Positions 3,431 to 51,300 of a stretch of DNA of 64,000 bases are shown here, piece after piece; positions within the stretch are counted from its first letter, which is position 1; each line of letters starts with the position of its first letter. A program made the position numbers and the translations under genes. Source of the stretch: Terfezia claveryi (lineage: Eukaryota > Ascomycota > Pezizomycetes > Pezizales > Pezizaceae). The notes under the pieces were generated by a model, which ran no database searches, was not told where the DNA came from, and was given only the letters and a program-made list of their open reading frames with translations. The DNA is taken from NCBI GenBank assembly GCA_015179025.1, contig WHUX01000055.1, positions 186,001 to 250,000 on the forward strand, written 5' to 3'.

Positions 3431-3461
<31 letters not shown>

Positions 3462-3571: not shown

Positions 3572-3656
3572 AGTTATTGAGAACCAGACTAGTTATTGAG
3601 ATAGATAACCAGACTAGAGATAGATTAGTCTGGTCCCTCCTCGGAGGGAGATAGGT
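3572..3656. repeat. Three adjacent ultrashort TAGTCTGG insertions, each between direct repeats
   Basis: Three duplications sit side by side. AGTTATTGAG (3572-3581 and 3591-3600) flanks AACCAGACT. GAGATAGAT (3598-3606 and 3617-3625) flanks AACCAGACTA. The second GAGATAGAT and GAGATAGGT (3648-3656) flank a 22-bp segment that begins TAGTCTGGTCCC. See the family described in the findings. Confidence 0.75.
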
Positions 3657-4181
3657 AGTTGTGTGGGTGGATGTATGTGGGTTAGGTTCTTTGGTTTTCT
3701 TGAGCCCGGCAACGAGTGTCTCGCGGGCTACGTAGCCAAGTACTATTGACGATCAATCTCGGGGGCTCGAAAAATAAAACCGACTTATCAAAACTTAGAT
3801 ACCTCGACTTCTCACGGGAGGCCATATCGTCTCCACTTCTATTTCGTCTCACTTCGAGCGGTTCTTCTTTTCGGTGGTCTACAGTGCAAACTTTATATCT
3901 AGCGGCCCGGCCATTATCTACTCTGCCCAGCTGCCTTATCTACACCCCACCCCACTGTTCTACTTACTAAGCCGTGACTGCTCCTCCCCCACTGCCCCTT
4001 CCCCACTGCCCCTTCCCCACTGCCCCTCTTCTACCGTCTGTTCGACCAACCATTCAGCGCGCCACCACCACTTACTTACCACGGCCTCCACTCTTGTAAC
4101 TTTCAGTTCGAGTTCAGCTGCACTTCGTTCTATCGCCGGCGTCTGAGATTACTGAGACCAACAGGACAAACATAGTTCTAG

Positions 4182-4251
4182 GTACGTTCGTAGCACCCCG
4201 ATGGGACCTTCCCCTCTTCTCACACTAATCGAACCTTCATTTGACTCCTAG
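4182..4251 (+). other. Probable intron in the 5' leader of the 4338 gene
   Basis: A GTACGT donor at 4182, an ACTAATC branch-like sequence near 4224-4230 and a CTCCTAG acceptor ending at 4251 form a standard fungal intron of 70 nt, entirely upstream of the ATG at 4338. Confidence 0.6.
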
Positions 4252-4337
4252 CTTCTAGAACATAGCCTGGCCCGGGCTCTGGCCCACATCTCTACATACA
4301 TCTCGACACCTGTCATCACCACCACAAACTTCACTCA

Positions 4338-7300
4338 ATGGAAGATTTCAAGGCCTTCGCCATCCCTATCCCCACAACCTCCCGTGTGCGTTTCGAACGC
4401 CACCGCTGTGCCTCCCGCCCTCGTCTCCCTGACTCCCTCAAACCCACTCCGACTCTTACTCCCACCCCTATCGTCTCCCTCACTACCGCACGCGTCGCGG
4501 GCCTCCTCTCCTCCTCCGACCTCCAAGACCGTCAACGTCTTGACGAGCTCCAAAGTAACCTCCGTACTCACTCTGAGCACAAGAAGAAAGTCTTCAACTA
4601 CCTCGTTACTGTCAAAAGTAAGCGACAGGAGGAGGAAGGTGGTGAATTTGATATTACTGAAGGTGATGTGACGGAGAATGCGATTGCGGGGAATATGCTT
4701 GATGTCCTTGATACGTTGGATGAGCTGCTTTCTGGAGCGGATCAGAGGTTGATGGAAAATGGGGCTAAGGCAAAGGGGCCAATGATGGAAACTGTTACTG
4801 ACGAGTATGGCGAGATGGTTGGAGATATCAAGATCCGCAACCCACTTCCTGAGTCTCTTCAGAACAAGATGGAAGAGGAGTGTACTAGCAAATCTGAACA
4901 TGGCGTATCTGTGAAACGTACTTTCAAGTTGCCTGCTTGGAAGGCAATGATGGACGAAGTCACTCCTCCAGGAAGCCCCTTCAGCAGAGACTTGTTTGCC
5001 AAAGATCATGTTGAAGGAGAGCCAGTCATGAACCTGGTTCCTGATCACCTCGTTACGAACGACAAAGAGGTCAAAGCCAATGCTGGAACATTTGAGCCAC
5101 GGATGACCAGCAGTGCGGCTGTTAAGGCCATGTTTGAGAGGTTTCTTGGGCCGAGCAAGGCGGTCGAGACTGCCCGGCTTGCTAAGGCTGAGGGTAAAGC
5201 CCAGCTGAAGGCGGGAAAGGTCACTGGGAAGGGCAGCGATTTGGTTCCCCCAGTTCCGCCACGTATCGTTAGGCGGCGACAGCAGAGGCAGAAAGAAGAT
5301 GGAGCTCGTGAAGCCCAGGCAGTAGCTGTGAAATCACAGCCTGCGCAGAGTAAGCCCCCGTTTCACTTTAACGTTCTCTATTCGAGATCTTCTTGTACTA
5401 ATAAACATTCTGCAAAAGCCGAGTCCAGCGGGAGCCCCACTGACCGAGGACGCGAAAGATCTGTATCCACGTTCAGGAAAGCTACACCACCAATGATACA
5501 TCTCGAAGAAACCGATTATGATTATTACCGCGATTTCCTCCACCAGGGAGTTAAGGCTAAGCCTGGAAAGCCACTTTACCCAGTGCCTACCATGTGCTCA
5601 GATGCCACTCTCCGCAAGGCAAGGTCCTGGTCTGGCTCCTCCAGTTTGCCAGGGTTGGAGTTAGCATGTGATAGCCTTTATGTAGAGCCAAACACCTCGA
5701 CTTCTAGCTCTGTCATCTCACGCAATGGTTCCGAGGACGCACAAGCAGATACTTCAGCATCATCAGTCCCTTCTACCGGCTCCCAGCCAGGGAAGACCAG
5801 TCCTGTGGCTGCAATGATTCCCAATGCCGAGTTCAAGACCGGAGGTGGCAGAGAACGATATAAGCCCACCAGTAACGTAGCAACTCTGAATGTCTCGCAC
5901 CAAACCGGAGTCGCCTTCACTGAGACAGAGACCCTCCAAGGCATCCCTCGAAAGGGGGAACAAGCGGTGAGAGATGAAGCCGGCAGAAACCAAAAACGGC
6001 ACAGTGCCACGAGCGAAGAGCCAAACGACGACACACCCATGGATGATCAAGTCGAGATCGAGAACGTCAAACCTTATCCCCTGCTTCGACGCAAAGACCC
6101 CTTTACTACTCCCAAGAAAAACGTCTTCGAAAGTGATGAGGATGGTGGAAGTGTCTACTCACGCCCAACCGGTTTTACCAACACGCAGGGATTCAGACCC
6201 ATGGATTCTCTTGAGGATGAAGAAGATCACTGGGATGTCTCCACTGGTTCTCCATCACTCAGGCGTACTCAACAAATTAGGAGGGGCTCTAGGAGGACTA
6301 GCGTCCCAAACTCTGCTGTTGGGAGGAATTCCGCCGGACGAGATGCAAACTGGGGGGAAGCCATGAAGACATCACCAGCTTCAACAACCAGCTCGACGTC
6401 CAGGATTCCAAAGGAGTTGAGAATGCTAGGCCTAACAATGGAAGAGCTTTTCTTGGACCCCATTAGTGGAGATTTTATCGAGCCTGATAGGTCCATCGGT
6501 GGGACAGCTGAATTGCGCCGGAAATACGAAATTGAGGGCCGCGAGGCGTGGAAACATGGGGAGCTGTCTATGGTGACTTTACAAAATGTACTCAAGGAAA
6601 GGGAAAAGGAGAGGTCTTTGACCGAAGCCATGTTCTCCGAGAGTACGAAACGCATGCCTCCCCCAAAATCAAAACTTCCAAAAGGAGGTAAAAAGACAAG
6701 CCGGATTGGTCACCGTCAGCATTCTACTCCGGCTTCCATTGCCTCCACACTCTTCTCGCTCTCACGCAAGGCTTCAGAGGCGAGTGTCAGTTCGTTCCAG
6801 CCTCCCAAGAAGAGAGTCCCGACTCCGAGTTTGGCTAGCAATGAAACGGATAGAACAAGCGGCATCAGCGCGGGGATGCGCAGGATCTTTGCAGGCAGTT
6901 TTGGCTCGAAATCGTCAGACAGTGTCATGACGAAAAGGTCAATCGATAAATCAATGATCTGTGTGATTGGTGGCAGGACCTTGTCAGGAGCACCATCTAT
7001 GATGAGCGACAGGGCTAGTGGGGAGAGCTTCCTACCCGCAGCAAGTGTCACTTCTTCCACTAGGAGTTCCATGACGAAATCCATTTGCGGGTCGGTCGGG
7101 CCACTTTTCTCAAGACAATCTTCTACAGCTGCAGCAGCTCATGAGAAGGACGGGAATAAGACAGCTAAACCTTCACCAGCAAAGATCGAACCGAGGAAAC
7201 TTCCTTCCCCACCACCGAAACTTGCTCGTCACGCTACAGCCCCTTATGGAAACACAATCAAAGCCCCGATTACAAGAACGGAGGCAAAAGAGAGAAAGGC

Positions 7301-8402
7301 CAGTGTCTTCGACTTTCCCATACCTCCTAACGTCGACCACTATGCTTGCAGCTTAGACGAATCGGCCTCAGTCCCCGCGATCCAGCTTTCCCCACCAGTT
7401 ACCGCATCCGCGAAGCTTTTCGGATATAACCCTCATAATAAACCTACACTCTCCCGTCTACCAACCCCGGCACACCCAGTTGCATTGAAGCGACCACAGA
7501 CCGGTGCTGGGTCTCGGCCCATGAGCCGTGCGAACTCTCGTGCTGGATCGAGATCGAATTCGAGATTGAGTCAGAGAACGACTTCGCGAAATTCGCTGGC
7601 GGGTATTGGTAGACACGGATCTGTGAATTCGCTAACCGCTGGTGGTAGACGCGGATCTGTGTCTAGCATTCTCACTATAAATAGACCGACTTCTAGGGCT
7701 GCTTCGCGCGCTGGGGCAATATCGAGGGCTGGGGCAACTTCGCGGGTCGGGGGAATTACTCGCCAGAAGGGAGTTGCGAATCTAAGGACGTTGGAGAATA
7801 GACAACACCGGCCGCAAGCTAGCGCAGCACCAAAGATGGGGGCTTTGTTGGGTGGTGAGAGCGCTGGGTCTCGTGCTGGAAGTAGGTTGGGCAGTTATGA
7901 CGATGAACGTGCTGCGTCTCGCATCGGAAGCACTAGTAGGATGATGCCAACACCAAAAATGGCTCCGATCATTCGACCAGCATCTCGTTCCGCTGGTTTG
8001 GGGTTCTCTCGGGTTCAAACAAAGTCCGACAGACCTCAAGCAACCCCTAAGCCTGGCAGCTACCACGACAGCCGGGACGAATCTCAAACAAGCACCTATG
8101 CTGACAACGATCAAGCAGAGAGCGGAGATTATACATTTCGAGAGTGGCTCACTCGCGACATCCCACTGGGATCAAGGCTCCCCGCGCCGCATTTGATGAG
8201 CAGCCCTGGAGGGAGATATCCTAAGCCTATGGGAACTGTGGTTGGTGGGGGCAGAAATGGAAAGAGGGGCCCAGGGTTGCTTTCGGGTTCGGGGAGATCA
8301 AGTCCAGCAGTGCAGAGGGTGGGGAGGGGACGGGAGGATAGGGGTGCACAGGGGAAGCAGCAGGGGAAAAATGGTAATGGGAAGAGAGGTGGGGATGCTT
8401 AG
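4338..8402 (+). CDS. Large Ser/Arg-rich low-complexity protein, possible microtubule-associated
   Basis: A single uninterrupted frame of 1354 residues, most of it predicted disordered. No catalytic domain is recognised. The N-terminal 150 residues include a basic region, then a possibly helical acidic segment. An SRIP motif at residues 688-691, in a Ser/Thr-rich basic setting, matches the S-x-I-P motif used by proteins that bind EB1-type plus-end trackers. SRLP copies occur at about 1042 and 1280. Two clusters rich in Ser-Arg dipeptides (about 1055-1130 and 1180-1225) resemble the Gly-Ser-Arg tails of cytoskeletal linkers such as spectraplakins. The microtubule role is inference from these motifs only. 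ATG 4338 is the first in frame and follows the probable leader intron. The antisense frame over its first 700 bases is a shadow. Confidence 0.8.
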   Translation: MEDFKAFAIPIPTTSRVRFERHRCASRPRLPDSLKPTPTLTPTPIVSLTTARVAGLLSSSDLQDRQRLDELQSNLRTHSEHKKKVFNYLVTVKSKRQEEEGGEFDITEGDVTENAIAGNMLDVLDTLDELLSGADQRLMENGAKAKGPMMETVTDEYGEMVGDIKIRNPLPESLQNKMEEECTSKSEHGVSVKRTFKLPAWKAMMDEVTPPGSPFSRDLFAKDHVEGEPVMNLVPDHLVTNDKEVKANAGTFEPRMTSSAAVKAMFERFLGPSKAVETARLAKAEGKAQLKAGKVTGKGSDLVPPVPPRIVRRRQQRQKEDGAREAQAVAVKSQPAQSKPPFHFNVLYSRSSCTNKHSAKAESSGSPTDRGRERSVSTFRKATPPMIHLEETDYDYYRDFLHQGVKAKPGKPLYPVPTMCSDATLRKARSWSGSSSLPGLELACDSLYVEPNTSTSSSVISRNGSEDAQADTSASSVPSTGSQPGKTSPVAAMIPNAEFKTGGGRERYKPTSNVATLNVSHQTGVAFTETETLQGIPRKGEQAVRDEAGRNQKRHSATSEEPNDDTPMDDQVEIENVKPYPLLRRKDPFTTPKKNVFESDEDGGSVYSRPTGFTNTQGFRPMDSLEDEEDHWDVSTGSPSLRRTQQIRRGSRRTSVPNSAVGRNSAGRDANWGEAMKTSPASTTSSTSRIPKELRMLGLTMEELFLDPISGDFIEPDRSIGGTAELRRKYEIEGREAWKHGELSMVTLQNVLKEREKERSLTEAMFSESTKRMPPPKSKLPKGGKKTSRIGHRQHSTPASIASTLFSLSRKASEASVSSFQPPKKRVPTPSLASNETDRTSGISAGMRRIFAGSFGSKSSDSVMTKRSIDKSMICVIGGRTLSGAPSMMSDRASGESFLPAASVTSSTRSSMTKSICGSVGPLFSRQSSTAAAAHEKDGNKTAKPSPAKIEPRKLPSPPPKLARHATAPYGNTIKAPITRTEAKERKASVFDFPIPPNVDHYACSLDESASVPAIQLSPPVTASAKLFGYNPHNKPTLSRLPTPAHPVALKRPQTGAGSRPMSRANSRAGSRSNSRLSQRTTSRNSLAGIGRHGSVNSLTAGGRRGSVSSILTINRPTSRAASRAGAISRAGATSRVGGITRQKGVANLRTLENRQHRPQASAAPKMGALLGGESAGSRAGSRLGSYDDERAASRIGSTSRMMPTPKMAPIIRPASRSAGLGFSRVQTKSDRPQATPKPGSYHDSRDESQTSTYADNDQAESGDYTFREWLTRDIPLGSRLPAPHLMSSPGGRYPKPMGTVVGGGRNGKRGPGLLSGSGRSSPAVQRVGRGREDRGAQGKQQGKNGNGKRGGDA

Positions 8403-8668
8403 ATGGGTGGGGGAGCGGGGAGCGGGGGGTGTTCGGGGGATGGAGAAAAGAAATAAGGAGGTAGCGGGTCGAAATATGATGGGAATTGGATTGAAATCCA
8501 ATATTGCGTGATGGAATCTAAGGGAATGGAATGCAAATGGGCAAATATGGATGGAATCTGATATATTGCAATTTGTTAGCAGGAAAGGAATCGATATCCT
8601 GTTACTCTTGGCAGCAGTACCTAACTAGCTTGGGAGATTTGGCGGATTGAACGTTTTCTTGACGAGGT

Positions 8669-8726
8669 TGGTTACGATTTTATGGTTACGATTTTTACGG
8701 CTACGATTTTTTACGGCTACGATTTA
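8669..8726. repeat. Short tandem repeat, unit about 15 bp
   Basis: Four successive degenerate copies built on GGTTACGATTTT or GGCTACGATTTT, lying 270 bp past the stop codon of the preceding gene. Confidence 0.7.
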
Positions 8727-10276
8727 TGTTGGGCGATGGAAAATTGGTGTGAGAGAATTGATGGGAAATATAGTTGAAATATCTTGATTCGCTTTTTGCT
8801 TGGCTGTATTGAATGGAAAGTATGGAGGGGTAGGGGGAAAGGAAAATGGTTGAGGGAGGTGGTTTGACATGGGGAATAAGTCGAGTTTATGTAGTTGCGG
8901 CTTTGTATGAAAGGAAATAGCTTGAGGCTGAAATTGAAAATTTAATGGTGTTGCTGAAAGTTTGTATAATCATGAAGAAGTTGTTCTATCCAGTATGAGA
9001 TTCATGAACTTCAGATCGGTCAATTGGTTGAACTCTCTAGTTTACATGCAGACTAAACTACGTAACCATCTGTTATATACATACCGGTATGTACATTATA
9101 GTAATAGCCCAAAAGCCAATATCTTTGTTAATCAACAAGTATTAAACAGTTATAACCTACTATCTTACTAGCATATATTACAACTAGGTACTATGTTAAT
9201 TATAGTTTTTATTCCATGACTATATTATTTAACTTTGCATATATGTATATATTTAGAGATGGAAATGTTTGTGAGTAACTAATATATTAGATTTGGCTTT
9301 ATAGTTATATTGAACTATAATATGCAACTGATTCATCTTTTACTAGAAAGTTAATATTAGAACGAATCTTGTTGATGAAAGAGAATGGTGGATTGTGAAT
9401 TAGGTAGGTATTATCTTACTCTTTTGTGGATGAGTTGTACCTACATACTGTGGGTAGATTTACCTCCTAGCTAATTAGATACTCTTTGTCAAGATCAATG
9501 CAGATTTTTGTATACTGTATTTATCTTGATATGAGGGTTTCTATTTATATCGCTTAGAACACCAAGCCGTTCGAAATATTACTGACTTACTAGTATCAGT
9601 ACCCCGTCGGGTCAAAACCAGGACTCTCAGATGTGTTAAATCCAAGCGGATACCTGCTATGGTTGAGTAACATATCCCATAAGCCCACTGCAAAGCGTAA
9701 TAGATTAGTGCGTGCTTAAGGAAACATTCTGATATCAAGGCTTCCCACACTAATATATATATTTGATGATCTTCTTGAAGTCCTACAGAGCCCAGAATCG
9801 ACAGACATACTCATAAAATGCCTTAATATGCATCTCAAGTAGCATTTTGGCTATAGTACTCAATGCTGTGACAAAGAAGCAATTCACTTGGGGAGGGGAA
9901 TTTTATGCGGGGATAAGCTTAAAAATAATGCGCACCCGAGATTACTTGCAGTTGAAACAGCTCTAGCCGGAAAGGGGGGGGGGGGGGGGTGGTACTCAGG
10001 CAGAACATGCTAATAATCTCACTTTCTTATAAAGGAAAAGCAGCACATAAAGAAATCTAGTAGCTCACCTCAGCATATTGATATATCGTCTCTAGCTCTA
10101 CCTAGACCTAGACAACGGCGTAAGACGGCATTGTACACCGGATTTACTGGGAACGGGTAGTATAGTCTACCCCGCGCGCTTGGTGGTTCGTGCCGGAATT
10201 TCTGCGGGGCGTCAAGGGTATTTGTTTCATTTGGATCTTGCAGAATAACTTTATACAAGACTGGGTTCGATGTTTG

Positions 10277-10284
10277 TATAAAAG
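10277..10284 (+). promoter_or_regulatory. TATA box of the LPMO-like gene
   Basis: TATAAAAG lies about 220 bp before the ATG at 10506. The following sequence is a C/T-rich leader. A strong TATA box suits an inducible secreted enzyme; its use is inferred. Confidence 0.5.
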
Positions 10285-10505
10285 AGGGCCTCGGGAACCG
10301 CCCTTAGGGTTTCTTCTGCAGGCTCAGGCAGGCTCAATTCACGAATTCTCTTCTCCTTTCTCTATATTTTCTATTCCCTAGACATCGAACATAGTCCTCT
10401 GGTTAGGATATCTGTTTTAGTTTCATTATATTCAATTCTTACCACCTCTAATTAATTTCCCAACTCCATAATCAATCCCCAAATATATCCCACCTATCCT
10501 CCAAG

Positions 10506-11300: not shown

Positions 11301-13382
11301 GTAGGAGGGCATTGGGTACATGGTAACGTGGTTGTGTTGGGCATAGCCTATAATGTTATGTTGCGGGGCTTACTACTGTCTGATAGTTATATTAGAGCAG
11401 TGGCATTGGGTTTTCTACTGGAACTCTTAGGGTAATCAATTTTAATTGCTTAAATTTGAATAAGATTTTTTTCAAACCAATCGATAGGGTGCCGTATGAG
11501 CGATTGAAATTCGTATATATAATTTGGGTTCCGCAGTTAATACCTACTCAGAATGATGCCTGAATATTGTATTGTAACCATCTTCAAGCTCAGCTAAGCT
11601 TTATATCACTCTATTATTCACTACCTCCACTACCACCTCTATTACATTATATATGAGTTTCATTCTACATATTATAGCCTGTATCTAGATCTTCTCCTCT
11701 TTCGTATCAAAGCCATCCAGAAAAAACCTTTGAAGTTGAACTAAAGCATGCAAATTTTCTCCGAGACTATATACATCAACATCTATCAACTCTAGGTTAT
11801 CTACTGACAGTACTGTTAGACAAGTAGGTAAGTATATATATCTAAAAGGAAACTGTAATCTAGTATACTAACTATGCTAATGCACATCTCTTGTAATATT
11901 TACCGTATTTGGAATAAGGTACTAAATTAAGTAAATATTTTACCTATTCTCGTATTGTAAAACCAACGTCTAGCCATATACTATAGTCTCTACTTCCATG
12001 CCATAGTCTGGCTAGCTATCAAATCATGAGACTAGCTCTCGAGATCTATTGCATTCATATCCAAGAGTAGGTCAAGGTGAGAAATTTGGTCTCGGTCTCG
12101 AGATCTCGGTATATCCTTGTTAGCTACACAGCTTTCAGACCGCGTGGCGGTGTAGGTAAACCTCCAGGACCCAGTATACTAGTACTTTTATTGACATAAT
12201 GCACTATATGTCAATAGCTGTTGTGGATAGTAGCTGGATATTTACTAACTTGATGCCATGGCCATTATAAGCTCTGCATATTTACCATTCAAGTAGCTAT
12301 TTCTTTCCGTTGATTCCGAGTTTAGGTTGATAGAGTTAAGAAAAGAATTATCGGCTCAAGAAAAGACTCAGTGTAGCTTAATTACATACGCGACTTAAAT
12401 TTTTGCCTAAGGAGGTGAAGTATATAAAAGCAGGGAAGAGATTATCCTCGTTTCATATTATAAAATATATAAGAAGCTGAACTTTGAACTATACGTAGGT
12501 CCCTCTACCTAGAGTTTGATGCCCGCCAGACAAGTACTTAATATAGGACCATAAAAAGCTCATAACACTAACTAGATCCCATATCATCAACCAAAAACCT
12601 GCTGTGTATTTCTCACCTAACCCCTCCCCTGACTTATCATTCTCAAGGGATAATAGTTTAGCCTATAGACATTATAGCAAGTCTCAATACCACGTAGAGG
12701 AGGAAGAAAATAGGTTAAGTCTCTAATTTCTCCAGTTTCTCATCTGGGGGATGTCTATTATTAGGAGTACAGTACTACATATATAACAAGACGAACTCCA
12801 TTGACTCATATTCCAGAGCTATTGGGTACTTCACAGATTATTCCTTGCATTTGTGCGTTTCTTTTTTAGCCATCTCTACTGTCTAATTTCTATGAAAAGC
12901 TATTGAGATATACAACATACCGGGTGTTATTACCCAGTACTATTGCATTAGAAGTATATAGCAATGGATTAGGGAGTAGGGCCAAGCCCTATAGCGCATT
13001 ATTTATAAGTACTAGAATGCCAGGTCTAAATTTCTAACCAGACTAGCAAATTTCCTTGGCTAAGTGTCAACCGGCTAGCCCCACCGATACATGATTGGCC
13101 TCTGTATACAACAACTAGTCTGGTTGACAACAAACGTAGTCTGGTTGCATGACCCTCCTCCTGCAACAAACGGGCTAATAGGACATCTGGTCTCGGTTAC
13201 ACAGAGGAATCTAGTTACGCAAAACAATTCTAGAGCTTCTGCTACTCTCCTTTAAACATTTGCAGGCCCTGGCGTCCTGGCGACTGACCGATTCAAGGTC
13301 AACAGTCCCGCGACACCATCCACTCAATATTACCTTGTCACGACCCCTAGTATACCTGTTTATGTGTTGGCCAACTACTCGT
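11301..13382. other. AT-rich intergenic region
   Basis: No gene seen; the few open frames are short and AT-driven. It holds CCAGACTA-type motifs at about 13035-13046 and 13115-13132, and a complete insertion between direct repeats at 13128-13172. Confidence 0.6.
13128..13172. repeat. 27-bp TAGTCTGG insertion between 9-bp direct repeats
   Basis: CAACAAACG at 13128-13136 and again at 13164-13172 flanks a 27-bp segment (13137-13163). The segment starts TAGTCTGGTTGCATGACC and ends in CCTCCTG. Confidence 0.8.
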
Positions 13383-19954: not shown

Positions 19955-20465
19955 GGTGAACGACAGCTCGTGCGCAGTTGAAGGGCGAGCTATTGCGTAA
20001 ATAGTGTTGGGTATGGGAAGGGATAGCGAGAGTCGTTGTGGGCGTGGATATCCTGTTGGCTATTATATAATAGTAAACGGCAGCTGACATTCAATCAAGA
20101 GTGAGGGCACCAGTAATGTGTTCACTCGCACGAAGATAACAGAGCCGCCCTTCAGCTGCTAAAGCTGAGGATAAATAATCAGGAAATGCCGCCGATGCAT
20201 ATCACTTCGGAACCAATAGAAATATACTGTCATAACACCCAATATATCCCACATTACGCATCACGAGTGATTGTAAGGACATCAATTACAAACAACGCTG
20301 CCTAATTCGCTCCAATATTCTTGGCAGACAGCGACGTGGCGGCCGCTTGCCTAAAACAAAAATAAACCCAGCTTACTTTAGAACCTGAGAATATTGTTCT
20401 GACGGCGATACTTATCGGAATGACAGTCAAGAAGTAACTGCAGTACAAACTTGAAGTCACCCTAA
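19955..20465. other. Divergent promoter region between two membrane-protein genes
   Basis: About 510 bp between the ATG codons of two outward-facing genes. A shared promoter is possible; I see no clear TATA box or repeat that proves it. Confidence 0.5.
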
Positions 20466-24344: not shown

Positions 24345-25064
24345 CTACTACCGCATCCACTGGCGAACAACAGTCATTGTCAGTTTAATGACATAGGTCA
24401 AGCTTATGCAGTAAAGGTGATATCCGAGCACAATGATACCGCGCACACTGAGCTACAACGGTCCAGTTTATTGAAAAAGTGCACTAGGTATCCGAGCGCA
24501 TAAAGAGGTGGATGATACCACGCAAACTGAGCTACAACGGTACCGTTTATTGAGAAGTGCACTAGGTATCTGAGCGCAGATTGGCAAATATGAGGATGAC
24601 GATAGTAGCATTGGAACATCGCCGAATTGCAATTACACATGCAGTGATTATACTCTCAGCCTTAGCCCTCTATGCCGTCATGAACATAAGCGAGATACAA
24701 TTATCAACGCATTCAAGCAGACTGGTATTTCACTTTGTCCGACTGGTAATGATGACCATCAACTGCATGTACGAGGGCTACCTAATCATGTGGTGGGGCC
24801 ATGGGAAAAAGAGTTGGATTCCGATGAAGAGGTTGAATATATTTTGCGGCTGAGGATGTGGTGGTTGAAACCGATGTAAATCCTTAGCGTTACCTAGTGC
24901 ACTTTTTCAATAAACTGGACCGTTATAGCCCAGTTTGCGTGGTATCATCCATGGAGGGGTTGTGCAATCAGACTAGGTATCATTGTGCTCGGATATCACC
25001 CTTACTGCATAAGCTTGACCTCTGTCATTCAAGGACCGTTGTTCGCCAGTGATGCGGTAGTAGC
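24345..25064. mobile_element. Foldback-type element with terminal inverted repeats of about 180-220 bp
   Basis: The left arm (24345 to about 24568) and right arm (about 24890 to 25064) are inverted copies, starting at CTACTACCGCATC / GATGCGGTAGTAG and sharing CAAGCTTATGCAGTA and TGATATCCGAGCACAATG. The left arm contains an internal tandem duplication of about 100 bp. The right arm has instead a 27-bp TAGTCTGG-type insertion. The loop holds an open frame of 101 codons, 24574-24876 with stop 24877-24879, that lacks an early ATG. It includes DTIINAFKQTGISLCPTG, which loosely recalls the C-terminal part of DDE transposases (inference). Confidence 0.75.
24941..24983. repeat. 27-bp insertion with CAGACTA end between 8-bp direct repeats
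   Basis: GGTATCAT at 24941-24948 and 24976-24983 flanks 27 bp (24949-24975) that end in GTGCAATCAGACTA. The insertion sits inside the right arm of the foldback element and is absent at the matching point of the left arm. Confidence 0.75.
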
Positions 25065-25279
25065 TTCCTGACTATCTACCATACCACAAATACCCCCGCT
25101 CTAAAATACCCTGAAACTGCTCCTCCCCCTCTTTTCTCCAATATGTTCTCCTCTACCTCCAGCTTAGGACATTCAAGTATGGGAGACTAAGAAACATGTA
25201 AGTATCTATTTTGGCTGCATTGGAGGTATCATTATGCGGTGCAAATTCTTAATGTATTCGACATGTGACGACCCTTGGC

Positions 25280-29122: not shown

Positions 29123-29960
29123 CACCTTTCCTACAGTAACAGCAATGGTTTGTCATGGACGCCTTGCTTGCATTTGAATGCAGACAAGAGGCTCGTCATG
29201 ACGAGTTCTCATTATCTCGCCATAACCCACGCAACTACCCCATCAACGCGGCTACCATATCAATGCGACTACAGTACCTATAAACACGAATCCCATATCA
29301 ACACAACTACCATAGCAGCGCCAATCCCAAATAATAATAATATTCTTTCAACGCAAGTGCCATAGCTATGCTCCCCAAATTGTTTGACGGGACATGATAT
29401 TATTGATTCGGATTATAGGAAGACCCAGAGCGGCTGCAGGCCTGTGAAGTAGACATCATGAAAGATAGAAGGGAGTTCTAGTGAGCCATAACTTTCGAAA
29501 TATCCGTACAAAAGCTGGTACATTACTTGATCTGTTTATAAATAAACAGCAGATATCACAAACCCGTCCTAAAGCATGTGAATGTGATGATACAGTACTT
29601 GCAGAGTGTGGTGTTGGGATGTATAAATTATTAGGCGATAGGTAAGATTTGATTGAGCTCGAAAGGGGCAACAGTGCGAATTTCCTGGTACTTCACTTGC
29701 GGCTTCAGAAAGTGAATCATGAAGAAGTAATAGATTCAGTTCAAGCTATCTAGGCTGTACGACTGAAAGGATAGATAAATCATGTGGAAGAAACGTTTCA
29801 TGAAGCTTGCAACTTGGAGACAGAAATATAACTCGTCATGACGAGCTAAGGGGGGATTGTGCCAACCAGACTAATGACGAGCCCCTTTTTGTTTACCCAA
29901 AAGGAGCAAGGCGTCCACGACAAGGCCCCCTGCTATTACCTTTCCTCTATAGGAAAGGTG
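29123..29960. mobile_element. 838-bp foldback element
   Basis: The left arm (29123 to about 29206) and right arm (about 29831 to 29960) are inverted copies beginning CACCTTTCCTA and sharing GGACGCCTTGCT and the palindrome CTCGTCATGACGAG. The right arm is longer because it carries extra segments, including a 28-bp TAGTCTGG-type insertion and a short palindrome near 29938-29960. The interior has a coding-like plus-strand stretch at about 29505-29650 (TLLDLFINKQQISQTRPKA) that I do not recognise. Confidence 0.7.
29839..29882. repeat. 28-bp insertion with CCAGACTAA end between 8-bp direct repeats
   Basis: TGACGAGC at 29839-29846 and 29875-29882 flanks 28 bp (29847-29874) reading TAAGGGGGGATTGTGCC then AACCAGACTAA. 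It lies in the right arm of the foldback element and is missing from the left arm. Confidence 0.8.
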
Positions 29961-33681: not shown

Positions 33682-34114
33682 TATCGATTTGTGCTAAAGG
33701 AGGGGGAGGAAACGTACGAGGCCACGGAGGCTTTTTTCGGGCTCTTATTCCGAGAGCTCACTTAGTACACAGTCAATTTGTCACAGTCACGTCTCCACGA
33801 TTATTACGAGTCCCCTTTGTCTACAGTTCTGATTTTAGTTACATATTTTCATAGTTTCACAGCCGGTCCAGGAGGCGAGCTCAGTCAGGCTTTCGAGTCA
33901 TCGGCTAAGTCCGTTAGTGACAGCACGGGGCAGCCCCTTTTGGTTTTTTTTTTTTTTTTTTTTTTTTTTGTGTATCTAGTTTGCGCGGGTCTGGCAGATT
34001 AACTTGCCTCACCCTTGAATCCACCGGGCTTCCGCGTGGCTCCTCATAGCCCCCCTACGGGGCTGCATAGGAGTACTGAGTATTTAAAAAAAAAAAAAAA
34101 TATCGATTTGTGCT
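33682..34114 (+). mobile_element. SINE-like retroposon, longest copy, with 14-bp target-site duplication
   Basis: TATCGATTTGTGCT at 33682-33695 recurs at 34101-34114, directly after a poly-A tail, so the element is 33696-34100 (405 bp). Inside are a sequence that loosely resembles tRNA-type promoter boxes (GCTCAGTCAGG then CTTTCGAGTC at about 33881-33902), a long T-run at about 33944-33969, the core GCAGATTAACTTGCC, and the hairpin AGCCCC/GGGGCT at 34048-34064. No coding capacity. Confidence 0.85.
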
Positions 34115-34203
34115 TATTTTTTGACTTATTGAGACCTTATCCCTTGGGCTGAACTGGTCCTCATACAAAAATCATAGGTTTGGGCCAGACGCCCAACGAG
34201 CGG

Positions 34204-34312
34204 CTTGTGTCAACCAGACTACTCCAGCCCGCTCTCTGACATTTCTCCAAACCGGTGATTCACCAATCTTGAAGGAGCACTGGCTGCAACAACCTAGACT
34301 GGTTGGAACAAC
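34204..34312. repeat. Pair of inverted CAACCAGACTA motifs
   Basis: TTGTGTCAACCAGACTA at about 34206 and CTAGACTGGTTGGAACAAC at about 34294 face each other across about 70 bp. The right one lies between near-identical CAACAAC / GAACAAC. Probably related to the TAGTCTGG family. Confidence 0.5.
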
Positions 34313-36353: not shown

Positions 36354-36654
36354 AAAAGCTGTAGTTTTCGAGTCCCCCTTTGTTAGTCTTTTCAGTTCAT
36401 CTCTTTTCCGCGAGTCCTTCAGCTCGTCAAGTTTGGGTTGAGGCTCAGTCAGGCCTTCGGGTCATCGGCTAAAGTCCGTTAATGACAGCATGGGGCCTCG
36501 TCTATGTTTGTATGCTTAGTTTGCGTGGGGTTGGCAGATTAACTTGCCTTTCCCTTGAATCCACCGGGTTTCCGTGTGGCTCCTCATAGCCCCCTAACGG
36601 GGCTACATAGGAGTAACAAGTATTAAAAAAAAAAAAAAAAAAAGCTGTAGTTTT
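36354..36654 (+). mobile_element. SINE-like retroposon with 15-bp target-site duplication
   Basis: AAAAGCTGTAGTTTT at 36354-36368 is repeated at 36640-36654, after the poly-A tail, so the element is about 36369-36639. It starts at the CGAGTCCCC block that is internal to the longer copy (33807), so it is shorter at the 5' end by about 110 bp. It shares the core GCAGATTAACTTGCC and hairpin AGCCCC/GGGGCT. Confidence 0.88.
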
Positions 36655-37407: not shown

Positions 37408-37484
37408 TTTCCGAGTTTCCGGGTGGCTCACCACGGTCCCCTTACTGGGACCGCATACGAGTAATATTTTTTTAAAAAAAAAAA
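37408..37484 (+). mobile_element. SINE-like 3' fragment
   Basis: Contains GTTTCCGGGTGGCTCACC, the hairpin GGTCCCC/GGGACC, CGCATACGAGTAAT and an A-rich tail, as in the other copies. The 5' part is missing. No clear target duplication. Confidence 0.7.
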
Positions 37485-40400: not shown

Positions 40401-42019
40401 CCTCTAAAGTGCTTACCGTACCTCTTTCAGCCAGGGGGACAACGTTCCTACCGAACTCATTTGTCCTCATCTAGGCACGTTATAGAACTCTCTCATTCCA
40501 AGATAGAAGGATTGGTTGCAGTTATCTCACAGAGGAATGCAAAAGCTTAAAATTTGAGAGTTTCGTCCGATCCCACGATTGTGTGCTTTTGTTGCGGGAT
40601 TTTGGTGAACAATGGCCAATATCGCTACGCTGATATCCATTCAACAGAGTATAATTAGTCCTACGCTGTACCTATAGTAAAGTAAAGAGGCGTGGGAGTG
40701 GGGACAATGGGGATCTTGCCGTGAGGTCAAACATCGGGATTTGAATCGAAACGGGATGCGAAATCGAAAGAGGTTGGGTTTATCTCTAATTTTCACATGC
40801 AAATATAAAAAATTTCCTAGGCGGAGTCGAAATAGTTGGCTAGTCCAAACTTGTTTGGAGGCAGTATCTACAAGTTTGTTTTCCCGCCCTCAACAAATGA
40901 GTCGCCGGCTCCCAGCTTCCGACCACAGCTGTGTTCGAATTTGTTTATGCTACTTCTTCACATGCATATCCAGCCTTGAATACCAACCACAATTAACCAC
41001 AGCTACAGAAATATTCCATGATATTGTCAGCTCCTCAGAGAAATTTAGAGAGTCACGGTCAAATCTCACCCAGGTAACGTCATCCTCACTGCCACCCTGA
41101 TGGCTATGGGGATGATGTAGTGTTAATCTATCCCCACTTAAGACCGATGAGTTAGCCATGTTAAAAATAATGCCGCAGCATGGCAGGTACTATGTTTATA
41201 TTTCTAGGCAAATAAGGATTAAGTTATATGACGGGTCGAAAGGGTATAGAAGGAGAAAATCCAATTTGTTTAAAATGATACAACTCAAAATGCATATGTG
41301 AAGAACATTAGTTTCCTACTTTAATGATTGCATTCAGCCTTCTTGATGTGGTAGATAGTAAATTCCCAAAACATCGGATATCTCTCCCCAAAAATAAACC
41401 TCCAAGCCTTTCCATTCATCCCATCTCTTCTCCTCGGTACCGCCATATTAGCACATTTATTTTCGCACCGTTGCACCATGACGTGTAAATATTTCCAGTA
41501 TTAAAACTCACTCCCGCTAATGTATGTATATTTGTTTTCCAATAGCCACATCTCACGATCGATCTTTTGTATGATACCAATATATACGACACCTCCTCCT
41601 CTCGGCTCCGCTACACACGTTTCACGCCCACCTCGATCCCTCAGTGAACATTGCACATGTGTAAACGTGTAAACAAACCGGTAATATCTAGTATAATATC
41701 GGCAACCTCGAAAGGAAGCACACCAAAATAAAATATAGTTCAGGGTTTGACCGTCACTAGGATCTAATACTACTACCCAATATCTTGCCGTGCAGGCAGC
41801 CCTGGTTCTCCTACCATTAAAGTTTAGGGCCCTACATGCTTTCCATCGATGTCGCCGTGGACACGATATCACGAATTTCTATATCGATCTGAGATTGGGA
41901 AATCTCGAGACATGTAGGTATACAAATACGGATAGGCAGGAGGTGTTCCTGTAGCCCTAGGAGCCAAGTTCACTACTCTACAGTTAAAGCTAGTCTATAT
42001 CCGTATGTATTATATTCAC

Positions 42020-42087
42020 TAGCAGCTCCTCCTATGGAGGGTGTTGTACCAACAGACTATTAGCAGCTATAGTCTGGTTGACACAAG
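42020..42087. repeat. 33-bp insertion with CAGACTA(T) end between 8-bp direct repeats, plus an inverted TAGTCTGG motif
   Basis: TAGCAGCT at 42020-42027 and 42061-42068 flanks 33 bp (42028-42060) reading CCTCCTATGGAGG then GTGTTGTACCAACAGACTAT. A facing TAGTCTGGTTGACACAAG follows at 42070-42087, so the pair could also form a hairpin. Confidence 0.75.
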
Positions 42088-43168
42088 TAGCTGCTACTAT
42101 AGGCACAGCTCAGCAGTATACGTAGAGAAGGTGAGGCGAGCGAAGATATATATATAATACAAGTATGTAGTTAAGTACTGGTGTTGCCTTAGGAGCTCCA
42201 CTTTATTGCAGGTAAGGTAAGGCGTACTGTAGTAAATTACGGTAATGTCACTAAGGATACATCAATGTAAAAAACGTGGGCACGGTACGATTACACGCCT
42301 AACTGTGGAATGGCGATCGATCTGAATATATGCAAGATTCACGTGGGTCAATAAGTTATATGCGTACCAGTGGTAGTTGTGCTATGCCATAACCCACAGC
42401 AACAACCGTACAGGGAACATAGACAGGATCGATAAAAGTGAAAAAGTAAACAGCCCTCCGCACCCTCCTCTACCCCTTCCAGTGCTGCAACAAAACCCTC
42501 CCCACATACATATATATGCATGCCCTCCGGCCTTGCCCCTTTTCTTCACTTCCCATCCCCACGAGCACCTCAGTATAATCTCAATACATAAATCAAGTAC
42601 AGAAGGAAGGTATTTGATGTATAATCATTCAGATCGATGACTTCGACGAGCTTTGCTAGTCAAGACTGAATTCACATAAACATAAACATTCGCGTAGGCA
42701 CACGCACGAAGCAAACCAAAACAAATCGTAGAATGCCAACAAGAGCGATGGGAGATGGTTAATCGTAACAGCGTAAGCAAAGGGAGATCTTGAGATGTAG
42801 CGCAGTCGGCACTCGTGGTGCAGTTGTAAATTCAATATAAATACCCACAAAAACGCGCATTGTAGATAATGATCGATAAAGAAAAAAGGATGGACATAAA
42901 AAAGAGAGAAAGACCTGTATGTATATCCGGTGAGCTGTAAGGGAGGGAGCCTGATAGAGAAACTATCCAACATATCGTACTCAATAAGGAACGGAAAAGG
43001 CCAAACCAAGATAACAGAGCATGTAGGTGAAATATAATGTAGCAAGACAATATCGCGAAATTCCAAATCAGTAGACGCGCAGACAGCACCATAAATGTCA
43101 AAACCCCACGAACTCCTGAAGCTTAAGCTTATATCCCCACATTCCTTGTAGAATGACAGCCAGAATAA

Positions 43169-45308: not shown

Positions 45309-48300
45309 GGTTGTGCTTCCGGGATATATAGTCTAGATCTAAAATAAATATAAAAACAACCAACTCCGCTCAAGTGGAGAGGGGAAAGGTATTTGGGTGA
45401 TACAGCTTGTCGGGTTTCCTGAGGGAACCGCAGCTAATGTCGTGATTCTAGGTTAGATACTATCCCCTACCGACTTGGCTCGGGAATTTTATCAAAAGCT
45501 TTGGAGACACCTGATGTCGCTAGTAAATCAAGGAGTGGAAAATGAAATATGATCAACCCCCAAAGCTAGTATTGAGATCAATGAAAGTCGAGTGGTGTTG
45601 GTGAGATGGTATCCAAGTAGCTATGGACAAAAGCCGAATTAATAAAGCTCTCTCGTCCTGGTGCCTTGTTCTCTTAAGATGAAAAAGCGTTATTTTCCAA
45701 CGAACAGCAGATGCAGATTGGAGCGGTTTGAGTGTAAGCGCCGAAGGTGTTCGAGTTAAGCAAATAAATCGAACCGACGTTCTTCACGGGAATACGAAAG
45801 AAAGTTCTGGACAGGCTCGGGACACCGTCGCCGTCGTAATGCCTTTTGTTGTTGGGAATTCTGAATTAACTAAGACATAAAGATTCAGCTTCTGTGGCAA
45901 AGCGGACGACGACAGCGAACGGAGTCGTAATAGCTACCGCGGGGGGGGACTCACCTCAAACTCTGCCTACCAACAGCAACGAGGCGGCAGCAGGGTTGGT
46001 CAAGTTGCAAAGGAGAATAGGCAACCGCAAAATTCCGCGGGTGCAGCCCGTGTCGAAGCCGGTTTGACTGTACGGGGGTGGTTAATTGCGTGAGTTCGTT
46101 ACGATCGTGCTAGAAGCAGAGGTCGCTGCTTGCTTCGTGCACTGCCTGTCTCCCTGCTGCTAATGCTAATGCTAAGTAATGAGGACTGAAGGGACGAGTG
46201 AGAGAGGGATAGAGTGGGAGGGCGAGGGTTGATGTGGTAAATTGTGGGAGATGAGGAACGGTATGGGGTGTATGTATGTATGAGTACGGGTGAGGTCTCG
46301 TATGGATGTGCACTGCAACGCTGAGCGAGTTTGGGCCCAGGGCTGTGGAAAAACGGACACTTCTACAGCACGATCTTCGACCCCCACCGCCAACGAGAAT
46401 CGAGGTACGCCGGCAACCAGTACTATTCGGCTACTGGTGTCGCTGACCTGCTCCACCCCCAGTGGAGGAGCAATGGGGTCATGCTCGACTGCGTGCGGAG
46501 CAGCAAGAATCACAGGGTCTGAACTTTGCTCCGACCAGGTCACTTCTTCCGGCCATGCGAGTGCAAGCGACCTAGTTGGCTCGAAACGCTGCCATGGTCT
46601 GATAGGATACAGAATACGGTGAAAGAAGGACAGACTTTGTGGGGGAGGGGAAAACTTGGGGGCGTTGACTTGAAAGATCCCCGCAGTTTACCACCTATTC
46701 AGCTTGACGTTCGTCGCGGACGGCTTCACAGAACAAACAAGAAATCATGCCTGACGCTCCCTTACACACAAACACTGTGAATTTGGGCCCGATCAGGACA
46801 ACATAACGCTTCCCTTCAGAGGAGAATCTATGTAACATCGAGTCAAAGTGCAAGTCCTGTGATCACACAAGGGCTTTGCAAGGGCGAGATGGCTGGAAGA
46901 AGGAAAGCTTCTAGACATGGACACATGAATCGTTTCCTTGTCCTTTTTTTGTTTCCCACATGGATTATGCGGTCTGGTTGCAAGGAATAATTGGATCATA
47001 GCCCACGTCCATAAACAAATCTGCAAGTTTACACCGGGGGAGGGTGATGATTGGTTTTTGACAGTTTTGGAGTTTTGAAGTGGTAGGTAGGTAAGGAAGG
47101 AATCAGAAGAAGACAAACGTCAACACGGCTGACTAGGCGTGCACGGTGTGTGTGCACTACATACACCCACCAATGGCCACTGAGGGAACCCGCCTTTGGT
47201 CGGCAGCGACGAAAAGCAAGGAAGGTTTCTAACCACCATCATTCACCTCCCTACTACCTACATGCATATGCTTGCGGACAACGCATCACTACTGGCCATC
47301 GCGATCTTAACCCGGAGGAAAAGGGATTGGCAAATGTAAGGTTACATGTGTCATGCAATTTGGAAACCCCCTCGAGTAAGCGGTAAAATCTTCAAAAGAT
47401 TGAAGTATAAATCTACCTACAGCGATTGAGCACCTGAACAAAAGTGGGGAGCTACGGAATCTTTCCATGACACCACGCCCTCCAGTCGGTATCAGGGAAT
47501 ATCTCGCTCGCTGAGATGGAGACTGAGGGCGCGTATCGGATCCTGCCGCTCGCGCTCATAAATAATGGCACTATGCGATTACAAAACCTTGAGAAATATG
47601 AAGTATGCAGGTTCAACCCACTACACCATGCAAGTTTTTATTACTACTACTATGTTCCAACTTTAAGTAGTCACGGTTAGTAGAGTACCTATATCATGCA
47701 CTCTGCCAACTCAGTGAATCCACTTTAAACCTTTCCAAGCCGTGATTGGCTCAATAGCCTGAACTTGCGGGGGTATCAGCAACATGTATGTACTGTAGAA
47801 TGCTCTACATATGCACGCGGAGTTTGCACTTGTCCCTCCATACACTTGATTGGGACGAGACATGGGCATGGTCATGGTATCTAGCTGATCCACCGTGACA
47901 GAAAGACCCTGGATTCGAATGGCTGATTGATGATTCTCAGCCGTGAAACCCTAGTCCGGTCCAGAGTCTTGAAGAAACCTCGAAGTGAGACTAGGGAAAT
48001 AAGAAACTACGCCATTTATACGGCAGCAGACCGTTAAGTATAATTTTTAGGATTACGTTGTGCAGGGCTTGGATATCGGAAGGGAAACTTTCGACCGTTG
48101 TTTCTCTTCCCCGCACCAGCACACACGTGCCGCACCATGATACCTGGTGGAACTGGAAGGTCCTGACTCCGCTGCTGGTATTCCCGAGAGCTGCTGACTA
48201 CATACCATATCTCCCGACATTTGATCTGCTTTTGGGTAGGTATCACACTGCGAGGGGTAGTGCAACCAGACTACATATTATGTAGCTATCCGCCATGATT

Positions 48301-51300
48301 ATACCGTAGTCACCATTCTCCGGTCCCCTGCGTGCCACTAACCAAAATGCCACCAGATGCCTCATCGCAACGTCTTGAGTCTGTTGTAATGGAGGCTATC
48401 TTGGTAATCGGGCTGTAATCGTGGCTCAACCTTGGCGGATTGGCAGTTGCATTGTCCCTTATGCAGTTCAGTCATGAATGTCACAAGCGCCAACCTATTT
48501 CATCGCAGGCGTTCATATTCTGCCGAATAGCAATTGTGTTGTATTTTATCAAGGAAATGTGGATCACATTGCCGGTGGGGCGCGGGGATTTCACCCACGC
48601 AAGGGGAAGTGATCAGGCTCGGACTAGGCGCAGGAGACTAATCCTAAGTAGGGAGGAGAAAGTCACCGATGAACTTAGTCTGGATGGCACGATGAACTCG
48701 AGTCTTACTGGATGCCTCAGTGGTGATACATATTGTGTATCACAACTATGCATGTCTGCATTTAAAGGCTTAACAACGCTTGACGGAACAAATCCAACGA
48801 AACAAGAAGAAGGGAGTCCCCTAGTTTATGTGCAGTGCCGCACTCTCGAGATCAGCACCTTAAAGTAGCAGGCTCTATGATTTGCGGACCGGGGAAGGCG
48901 AACACTTTACCAATTGTTTCACACGCCATCCCGAACCCCAGCTGCCTATATCCCCCGTGTTGGTCCGTGCTCCGTATCATGTTTCCCTCTGAAGGCCAAC
49001 AGGCGACGATCCGCGTCCACCCGGCATAGATTGTCTTGATTATGCAAGGCCGGTGCATACGTGAATGCATGAAAAACATCGAGTGAAACAAATTCAAGTA
49101 GTTACTGTAATATGTATCACAAAAACAAACTTTTTGCAACAAAAAAAGGAACATAAACAGCGCATGCGCCGGCGCAATTTTCAATATATTATTTAAATTA
49201 GTATAACTGTAAGTTTTGCACCTGGCATCTTCTCCACCAATCGTCAACTGCTAACATGCATAGACGTGTACAGCTGAGAATTTTTAGTCTCGAACCTATT
49301 ACTTTCCACCGCATAAGCCATCCGTATCCAGGGCAATCAAATATTTCAGCATGAGCACTCGTTGAGAAGGTAGGTAACCGGTGTGTCAATCACTTGGTGG
49401 ATACACAAGCTGATGTTCATCTTGTTCTGTATTCGTAGAAGATTCCGTATCGGTGTGTACCGCAAGAAACATATTATCAACGTTGAATTTGGGATAGCCT
49501 ACCGTGGTTGTGGTAGCAAGGGATAGGGAAGCTGTGTATTTACCAACCTCGATGGATGGTGTGCACCCTGAGTCTGAATCTTGAAAGATAACAAAATGGG
49601 CATGCGGTCCTACTACAGTACATACCTAAGCGGGGTGCATCGGCTGTCTCTGGGAATAAGCTTGCCGACCAAACAAAACCATTCCAAGATGCCGCTTTGA
49701 GGAAATCAGGCCAGAAAGAAATTATTATGAATTTGGGAGCTACCAGTAGGTAATTTTCCCCACCCTTCGTACTAAATTTTGTGGCCAGTCCCCACACACT
49801 CTTATCCACTCTGCTACACTTCACGTGAGAGTCCCGAAAATGTTAAATATTTTGACTGGTAATAAATTCTCAAACCCAAGGCCGTATGGAAATTTCAAAT
49901 TATTGACGGTCACGAGCCCCCACGGCCACGAAAGCATCGCAACTACAGGCTAGAATAGACGCAATATCGAATCTACAGGCAGGCGGTATTTCTAGTCATT
50001 GCCGACACCTTCACCTTATACCGCTTGCGTGAAGCATAAGAGCTCAAGACTTGATGCAAGACATGTCATGAAGCATTGCATGACATTACATTTAACACAG
50101 AGGACTTCAAATTGTTACTCTCTATCCATACTTATAATACTTACATTCTTGCATCTACCGTACATGTATGCAAGTAATGTTGGCCGACTACCGAGGATTC
50201 CATCCAGTCATGTAATTCTCCTGCCTGACCGGTTGATGAGTTGTGAAGTACCTAGAGTTTTTTGACCACTTGCTTAGCTGCCTATAACCTTTATGTATAT
50301 ACGCGAGGACGAGGCACAGAATCAAGGCACAACCGTCGATATGCGCGGACCGCATTGCAGGCGGACGTGGTAGGCAGTTCTGACTGGCTGTCGGGAGGGA
50401 TATCTATTGGGTTGTTATCCGGGGAAGCATGCCGACCGGAAGGTTTGCGGCTCAAAATGGAGGGCCTTCGGGAAAATTATTTATCTCCGATCTGTAACAC
50501 ACATGATGATGTGATAAGTGCGCTTACACTACCTAGCAGCAGATTTCATTCAATTCGACAATTCGAAAGCAGAGCCTCGAGATAATTTTTGGGATTACAA
50601 TTATCGAGCACAATTATAGAGCACATCCAGCCTAGTCTACCCCGGCACCGACTTACCTGATTCACCAACCAAACTATACTCATTTCAACCTCAACATCTA
50701 AACACCCTGCTGGAGTGCCGTGACCACCCCGCACACAGTCGATTCATCATCACGGCACAATCTACCGCTCTGGGCAACCGCAACGCACAGCCGAGAGCGA
50801 ACCCCGCATTTATCAATGCAATCAAAGGAGATCAACATCTAGTACGTCGGCGGCGTATCGGATGAAACCTTCTAAAGCAGGGCGAGAACGTCATTGTTTT
50901 CTGTTTTGGGGTACGCAGGGTCCTGGAGTGGACCTGCGCGGTCATGTGGTTGGATTGAATGGGTAAAGAAACATGTAATTTAATCCGGTATATGTATACG
51001 GCATGGACTCTGTCCGCTCGTGGATTGAAGAAACCCCACATCTGACGTGATACCACTCGCGTATCTACCAGCACCGGAGATGGCAATGAGGTAGGCATGT
51101 GAGGTATTCAAACTACATCAATTTGTCTGGAGTATATGAAAATTTCGCATTCATCGAGAGTTTGAATTTCCCTGGAGCCCATGCATAAAATCTGCTAGCG
51201 TAAAACGATTTCAATTGGTACTGATCGTGGCGGCCATTGTGTGGTCGATACATTATCTGATATTAATTTTGCATTGGTGCACTCTGCCGCTATGCGGGAC

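Follow-up and report, generated by a model that had tools for sequence, protein, structure and literature searches.

Thousands of micro-insertions derived from a hairpin-bearing unit of 31-34 bp in the genome of Terfezia claveryi

We analysed a stretch of 64,000 nucleotides (nt) from the fungus Terfezia claveryi (contig WHUX01000055.1, positions 186,001 to 250,000; hereafter the window), in which a preliminary description had reported a family of ultrashort insertions, each with one constant TAGTCTGG end and flanked by direct repeats. The observation of micro-insertions is confirmed, and it holds genome-wide: the family consists of thousands of micro-insertions derived from a discrete unit of 31-34 base pairs (bp), with a hairpin at its 5' side and a constant outer end at its 3' side. 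We have very little doubt that the genome contains a genuine inserted unit of unusually small size.

The outer-end motif TAGTCTGG occurs 13 times in the window, against 1.99 occurrences expected from dinucleotide shuffles (maximum in 100 shuffles, 6), and none of the 13 sites lies inside any of the 15 open reading frames of at least 180 amino acids. In the genome (72.6 Mb), CAACCAGACTA, the outer end at a length of 11 bp, is found 5960 times and a reversed control pattern 57 times. CAGACTA itself stands at 17 sites of the window. A search that allowed one mismatch between 9-bp direct repeats and inserts of 7-34 bp found such a repeat at 9 of them, compared with 39 of 2832 sites (1.4%) for 300 random 7-mers; in these nine the repeat stands directly at the CAGACTA end, and it is exact in five and has one mismatch in four. 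An unselected sample of 104 CAACCAGACTA sites was drawn from the window, positions 1-200000 of contig C1 and 60 more stretches of C1, with sites near a stretch end and identical sites excluded beforehand. Here an exact 9-bp repeat was present at 38 sites and a repeat with at most one mismatch at 53, while at 20,000 random positions the frequencies were 0.6% and 2.4%, respectively. The genome-wide excess and its association with repeats bear out the preliminary description, whose eight listed insertions all carry 9-bp repeats, as does a ninth at 42061-42096. The nine inserts measure 10 to 32 bp, where 9-33 bp had first been given, and are, as had been supposed, too short for two ordinary transposon ends. 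The insertions and the further outer ends of the window are listed here.

3573..3600, forward strand: insert AACCAGACTA at 3582-3591; 9-bp repeats GTTATTGAG, exact.
3598..3625, forward strand: insert AACCAGACTA at 3607-3616; 9-bp repeats GAGATAGAT, exact.
3617..3656, reverse strand: 22-bp insert TAGTCTGGTCCCTCCTCGGAGG at 3626-3647; repeats GAGATAGAT/GAGATAGGT, one mismatch.
13128..13172, reverse strand: 27-bp insert at 13137-13163; 9-bp repeats CAACAAACG, exact.
24941..24984, forward strand: 26-bp insert at 24950-24975, in a foldback arm; repeats GGTATCATC/GGTATCATT, one mismatch.
29838..29882, forward strand: 27-bp insert at 29847-29873; 9-bp repeats ATGACGAGC, exact.
42019..42068, forward strand: 32-bp, nearly full-length insert CCTCCTATGGAGG...CAGACTA at 42028-42059; repeats CTAGCAGCT/TTAGCAGCT, one mismatch.
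42061..42096, reverse strand: 18-bp insert at 42070-42087, adjoining the insert of 42019..42068 and absent from the preliminary description; repeats TAGCAGCTA/TAGCTGCTA, one mismatch.
48667..48698, reverse strand: 14-bp insert TAGTCTGGATGGCA at 48676-48689; 9-bp repeats CGATGAACT, exact.
13038..13045, forward strand: further CCAGACTA end; no 9-bp repeat, a 7-bp repeat at an offset.
13116..13123, reverse strand: further TAGTCTGG end; no 9-bp repeat.
34214..34221, forward strand: further CCAGACTA end (TTGTGTCAACCAGACTA); no repeat.
48266..48273, forward strand: further CCAGACTA end (GCGAGGGGTAGTGCAACCAGACTA); no repeat.

The insert at 3626-3647 retains the hairpin and the outer end, the middle of the unit being missing. 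About 100 bp upstream of this cluster of three micro-insertions there is a GTA microsatellite (3431-3477).

Four paralogous sites without an insert support, by sequence comparison, the view that these are insertions with target-site duplications, as originally proposed. They are (i) the opposite arm of the foldback in the window, (ii) locus L159 compared with L087, with a good match on one side only, (iii) a diverged tandem paralogue within L042 and (iv) the copy at C1:65390 compared with that at C1:65890. Two insertions had been placed in one foldback arm and said to be missing from the other; for that at 24941-24984 the absence is confirmed, for the second it is not. The foldback-like element itself spans 24384-25032, with inverted arms of 57-58 bp that are 93-95% complementary, and related sequences occur on C1 near 125.6-125.9 kb and 142.2-142.5 kb and at L055. 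Micro-insertions nested in one another, with repeats of their own, were also found (L034). Bare 9-bp tandem duplications, considered as a possible by-product, number six in 264 kb, in keeping with the 13, 9 and 2 for lengths of 7, 8 and 10 bp (a single resampled control gave none of 9 bp and 5, 3 and 0 of the other lengths), and since they are so few, the copied piece seems to be part of the insertion event.

The full unit has the layout 5'-hairpin (for example CCTC-TAC-GAGG or CCTCC-TGT-GGAGG), a few nucleotides, TGTGCCAACC and AGACTA-3', some subfamilies having TGCAACC. Its outer end, ...CCAGACTA, is constant, and the junction with the site is always made through it; conservation at this end (GGGTGTTGTGCCAACCAGACTA in 398 copies, GGGTGTTGTGCCAACC in 482) is about what 3% point mutation per base leaves. 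The hairpin-form pattern CCTC..GAGG..TGTGCCAACCAGACTA has 219 matches in the genome, a few of them nested, and from these 60 full-hairpin copies with flanks were taken in list order, some being skipped; the pairs L147/L167 and L136/L179 are duplicated stretches, which leaves 58 independent copies. A 9-bp repeat accompanies 49 of the 60 with at most two mismatches and 46 with at most one, and 11 are without it. In 41 of the 49 the left repeat ends no more than 1 nt from the hairpin's first base, and in 32 the two adjoin exactly; within the 100-350 bp covered around the 60 copies, no exact repeat was found at a distance above 60 bp. This sharp stop of full-length copies at the hairpin base is what defines a discrete unit of 31-34 bp. 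The hairpin variants returned by the pattern search include CCTCTACGAGG, CCTCC-TGT-GGAGG, CCTCC-AAA-GGAGG and CCTCTC-TAC-GAGAGG, and a further one, CCCG-TTTGG-CGGG, was found outside it. Among the 97 non-nested of the 100 matches listed, loop orientation was 36:0 for CCTCTACGAG, 7:0, 5:0 and 4:0 for three others, and 11:6 for TGT/ACA; as four of the five loop types are one-directional, the units are not remnants of a symmetric palindrome. The full unit starts with CCTC and ends with ACTA, and so has no terminal inverted repeats (TIRs).

The shorter copies are the same unit cut back from its inner (5') side. The preliminary description spoke of a variable other end, and the inner end does vary, but what it forms is a truncation series of the 31-34-bp unit. 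Among 64 unselected inserts with a repeat (at most one mismatch), 29 are 7-15 bp long, 4 are 18-23 bp, 25 are 25-34 bp and 6 are 35-40 bp, the commonest single length being 15 bp (10 inserts); the 35-40-bp class includes two-ended forms and probably chance matches. Several copies have their inner end at the hairpin loop or one base before it (CTGTGGAGG, TGTGGAGG, CTACGAGAGG), an anecdotal observation without statistics. A repeat with at most one mismatch is kept more often in full-hairpin copies than in unselected ones (46/60 versus 53/104); an apparent link between full length and an intact repeat (10/10 versus 43/94) was set aside because the full-unit library had itself been built from repeat-bearing inserts.

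As to the repeat, a length of 8-10 bp had been claimed, and we find it instead fixed at 9 bp. From the window, 200 kb of C1 and another 60 stretches of that contig, 116 AACCAGACTA sites were scored, two-ended loci in some cases twice, once per strand. Clear repeats were seen at 49, and the length is 9 in 30 of these, 10 in seven, 7, 8 and 12 in three each, 11 in two and 13 in one; lengths other than 9 would be expected from chance extension or decay. The copies are also clustered: of 100 listed on C1, 22 have a neighbouring copy at 60 bp or less where 1.0 is expected (two-ended loci account for 12 of the 22), and 50 have one at 600 bp or less where 10.1 are expected.

In a minority of copies one insertion carries two outer ends, both facing outward. 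Genome-wide, TAGTCTGGTTG faces CAACCAGACTA within 1-31 bp at 136 pattern loci and at 32-60 bp at a further 75, neighbouring copies included. In 26 of 50 listed two-ended loci (of the 136) a prefix and a suffix of template type are joined with at most two bases between them; different template types are clearly joined in one of the 50 and in one locus of the 32-60-bp set that was picked for its mixed appearance. Loci of this form with a 9-bp repeat include L038, L039, L061, L076 and L095, and a second outer end of at least three bases is present in seven unselected events. The existence of two-ended forms of 40-56 bp raised the possibility of a palindromic parent of the miniature inverted-repeat transposable element (MITE) type, which was rejected on the loop directionality of the full-hairpin copies and on the ratio of 136 two-ended loci to 5960 ends.

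Taken together, the polarity of the unit, its sharp template end, the truncation and the two-ended forms favour copying of a short template into a staggered break. Our preferred explanation, put forward tentatively, is that a template of about 32 nt, an RNA or another single strand with a hairpin on its 5' side, is copied beginning at its 3' end onto the 3'-OH of a break with a 9-nt stagger; fill-in of the stagger would create the 9-bp duplication. Run-off at the 5' end of the template would yield full copies with the sharp limit of 31-34 bp. Short copies would result when copying stops early or when the template has been cut near the hairpin loops, and head-to-head pairs when both 3'-OH ends of one break are primed. 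The subfamilies would correspond to different master templates, and the cutting and copying enzyme is putative. We infer that the unit works like an extremely small retroposon. Of the two origins first considered, movement by something else or a strange excision scar, we lean towards the former. We judge there to be close to an even chance that this is a nuclear element whose whole unit is a 31-34-nt hairpin strand, that the 3' end of the strand is what inserts it into palindromic target cuts with a 9-nt stagger, in some cases on both sides of one cut, and that it is the smallest mobile unit known among eukaryotes, of its own kind between retroposons and DDE transposons. Among the matches listed in searches of open-licence papers there was no description of such an element, and those listed in a literal search for 11-mers had unrelated titles.

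Several points weigh against this copying model. The base composition of the 9-bp target shows a weak palindrome: across 92 unique exact events, position 1 avoids T (13) and position 9 avoids A (12), the commonest bases being T at positions 2 and 3 (34 and 33) and A at position 7 (33), and the correlation between half-sites is r 0.87, which none of 2000 random genomic sets reaches (column permutation p 0.019); it is 0.44 and 0.54 in random halves of the data, and in an earlier set of 83 targets the total departure from background was not significant alone (p 0.07). Together with the constant 9-bp stagger, this symmetry of the target favours a transposase-like cutter, the combination being more typical of DDE transposases than of the endonucleases of long interspersed nuclear elements (LINEs). 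Reverse transcriptase does not usually stop near loops, where several of the inner ends lie. Nearly all of the two-ended forms with a template-type prefix and suffix can be covered by one template type, which fully independent priming would predict only if a single template prevailed at any one time. The 9-bp repeat is lacking, at up to one mismatch, at 51 of the 104 unselected CAACCAGACTA sites. As for the hairpin, its CCTC/GAGG pairing is no independent evidence because it was built into the search pattern; folding z-scores of 17 unit variants ran from -1.2 to +1.0, with no energy signal above shuffles; the other hairpin of the unit, which lies around TGC, is weak; and L032, L047 and two two-ended loci carry reverse-loop forms (GTAGAGGG). 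An Rfam search returned only microRNA-like matches and one small nucleolar RNA match below the gathering score, none of them credible, and we know of no RNA of this kind here. Finally, of 71 LINE endonuclease-domain matches in the genome, eight 3' regions were sampled; the 3' end is poly(A) in six of them, which are all those resolved, and no reverse transcriptase with a matching 3' end was seen, so that none of the resolved LINEs is a candidate parent. In a reverse transcriptase domain search 150 of 2308 candidates were scored, and these are probably long terminal repeat (LTR) elements. The window itself holds two poly(A)-ended repeats that are 87% alike (33967-34100 and 36507-36640), with tails resembling the LINE 3' tails at L049, L050 and L052.

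On a different view, which we hold to be rather unlikely, the micro-insertions are excision scars left by a DNA transposon. Such a transposon would duplicate 9 bp of target, would have TIRs beginning TAGTCTGG and would have been excised with a very wide stagger, the outer strand being cut at the transposon edge and the inner strand 31-34 nt inside, at the hairpin; with one overhang lost at the double-strand border and the other filled in and joined, a solo-end scar would remain. The P element, for comparison, is excised with a stagger of 17 nt. The sharp limit at 31-34 would then be the cut site, the fixed duplication and the palindromic target suit a DDE transposase, and the coverage of most two-ended forms by one template type is in keeping with scars. 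End trimming would also give the better retention of repeats in full-hairpin copies (46/60 versus 53/104), and the clustering within 600 bp (50 of 100 copies, 10.1 expected) resembles local hopping. Scars by the thousand without fossil parents are odd, however. Across 264 kb, the only TAGTCTGG...CCAGACTA pair to bear a matching duplication is a 34-bp head-to-head form, and the stretch from 60 bp to 8 kb upstream of AACCAGACTA ends has no exact 9-bp repeat; in 49 of 60 full-hairpin copies the repeat is instead at short distance. For copies outside the 264 kb only about 90-350 bp of upstream sequence was covered, so that a parent with few copies could escape. Upstream flanks common to several copies, as far as examined, belong to host repeats, to duplicated regions or to further copies of the unit, with no longer source element among them. 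As no long form was seen, scars are disfavoured. Two-ended products should moreover be common, yet there are 136 such loci to 5960 ends, and seven such events in the unselected sample. For the Mutator-like element (MULE) Muta1, which makes 8-9-bp duplications, excision is reported to be mostly precise when the donor site has the duplication (PMC5225508), which likewise speaks against scars.

Matches to MULEs number 21 in the genome, and three regions were examined. One of them, L119 (contig C61, 1461-4096), holds what looks like a complete MULE, about 2.6 kb long, whose TIRs match perfectly over 90 bp and which is flanked by the 9-bp duplication TTGTTGAGG. Its TIR, CGGACTGACT..., is unlike the ends of the micro-unit, a further point against scars, and in the sequence covered, which for L117 and L118 stops short of the element ends, none of the three regions looks like the parent. 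The other two, L117 and L118, have very long inverted arms, with exact stretches of up to 324 and 460 bp, and micro-unit outer ends, or similar sequences, lie in both arms, which suggests homogenisation between arms. A search for the P transposase domain PF21787 gave no match, though its controls stayed silent too.

A third possibility, which we consider unlikely, is in-vivo tagmentation by a DDE transposase-like enzyme; the 3'-OH end joined by such an enzyme would be precisely the end that is constant here. The enzyme, with a 9-bp stagger, would join a 31-34-nt end piece (5'-hairpin...CCAGACTA-3'OH) to one, rarely both, of the target strands, and gap filling would make the duplication and copy the piece to its 5' end, whereby the sharp limit would be explained. 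The symmetric target bias agrees with this, as does a mild enrichment of the Tn5 9-bp motif at the targets (3.02 of 7 positions versus 2.54, z 3.9). However, a dimer loaded with two ends should yield mostly two-ended products, a one-ended product with a perfect duplication needs an unjoined cut of the second strand, and neither a source of free 31-34-nt ends nor an enzyme is known here.

A hAT-like element was the source suggested in the preliminary description, by way of its solo ends or of end-joining products. A single constant end flanked by target duplications would fit, but hAT elements duplicate 8 bp and here the length is 9 (exactly so in 30 of 49), and no parent with these ends, the longer element it had proposed to look for, was seen in 264 kb apart from the 34-bp head-to-head form (no search was aimed at hAT or other transposases beyond MULE and P), so that a hAT origin is very improbable. 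Adaptor or tagmentation sequence left in the assembly, to which the constant end and the 9-bp duplication bear a resemblance since Tn5 libraries make 9-bp duplications, has a negligible chance of being the source, given that left and right repeats differ by one or two mismatches in 9 of the 41 full-hairpin copies whose repeat adjoins the hairpin and by one in 23 of 64 unselected copies (some by chance), that several subfamilies and nested insertions exist, that two pairs of full-length copies belong to duplications with 98-99% identity across some 100 bp, and that the outer end occurs in both arms of a MULE.

Set beside known systems, the micro-unit resembles short interspersed nuclear elements (SINEs) and 5'-truncated non-LTR retroposons, with which it shares a constant 3' end, target-site duplications and a 5' end that is sharp in full-length copies and often truncated in others; subfamilies and occasional inverted forms are also common to both. 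It differs from them in its length of 31-34 bp, against about 80-500, which is too short for an RNA polymerase III promoter, there being no room for both A and B box; no transfer RNA-like gene was found in the window. It also has no poly(A) or simple-repeat tail, its target is palindromic, no partner LINE shares its 3' end among the six resolved, and its duplication is fixed at 9 bp, so that the variable duplication length of non-LTR retroposons is not seen. P-element excision footprints resemble it as short transposon-end stretches, from one or both ends, between target duplications, but their duplication is 8 bp rather than 9 and their stretches reach 17 nt rather than 34, and the micro-insertions are mostly one-ended and without a parent in 264 kb. 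With MULEs, as in L119 of the same genome, it has the 9-bp duplication in common; unlike MITEs and MULE-type transposons, the full unit has no TIRs and its shortened copies also carry duplications, and to our knowledge it is shorter than any MITE. Bacterial repetitive extragenic palindromes and interspersed mosaic elements (REP/BIME) are likewise hairpin units of 20-40 nt with a conserved flank, present singly or in inverted pairs and in many copies, whereas the micro-unit resides in a nuclear fungal genome and has 9-bp target duplications and an inner-end truncation series. The GC clusters, double-hairpin elements and palindromic repeats of fungal mitochondria are short, mobile and hairpin-bearing or palindromic too; the micro-unit differs from these in lying in nuclear-type contigs and in its 9-bp duplications and one constant end.

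Apart from this family, a DnaJ-like protein encoded in the window matches one of Terfezia boudieri with 98% identity over 31% of the query, and three other matches score higher (81-85% over 98%).

Among the mobile units of nuclear genomes, the one described here may be the smallest yet seen. If units as short as 31-34 bp are indeed mobile and present in thousands of nuclear copies, they mark a blind spot in transposable-element annotation, since such insertions are too short for the usual repeat finders and would pass as small indels. Were the micro-insertions excision scars, they would be a record of thousands of jumps by a transposon with an unusually wide cut. The polarity, the fixed stagger and the double-ended forms make the mechanism testable, and the family, if it is what it appears to be, shows how little sequence a mobilising enzyme needs.

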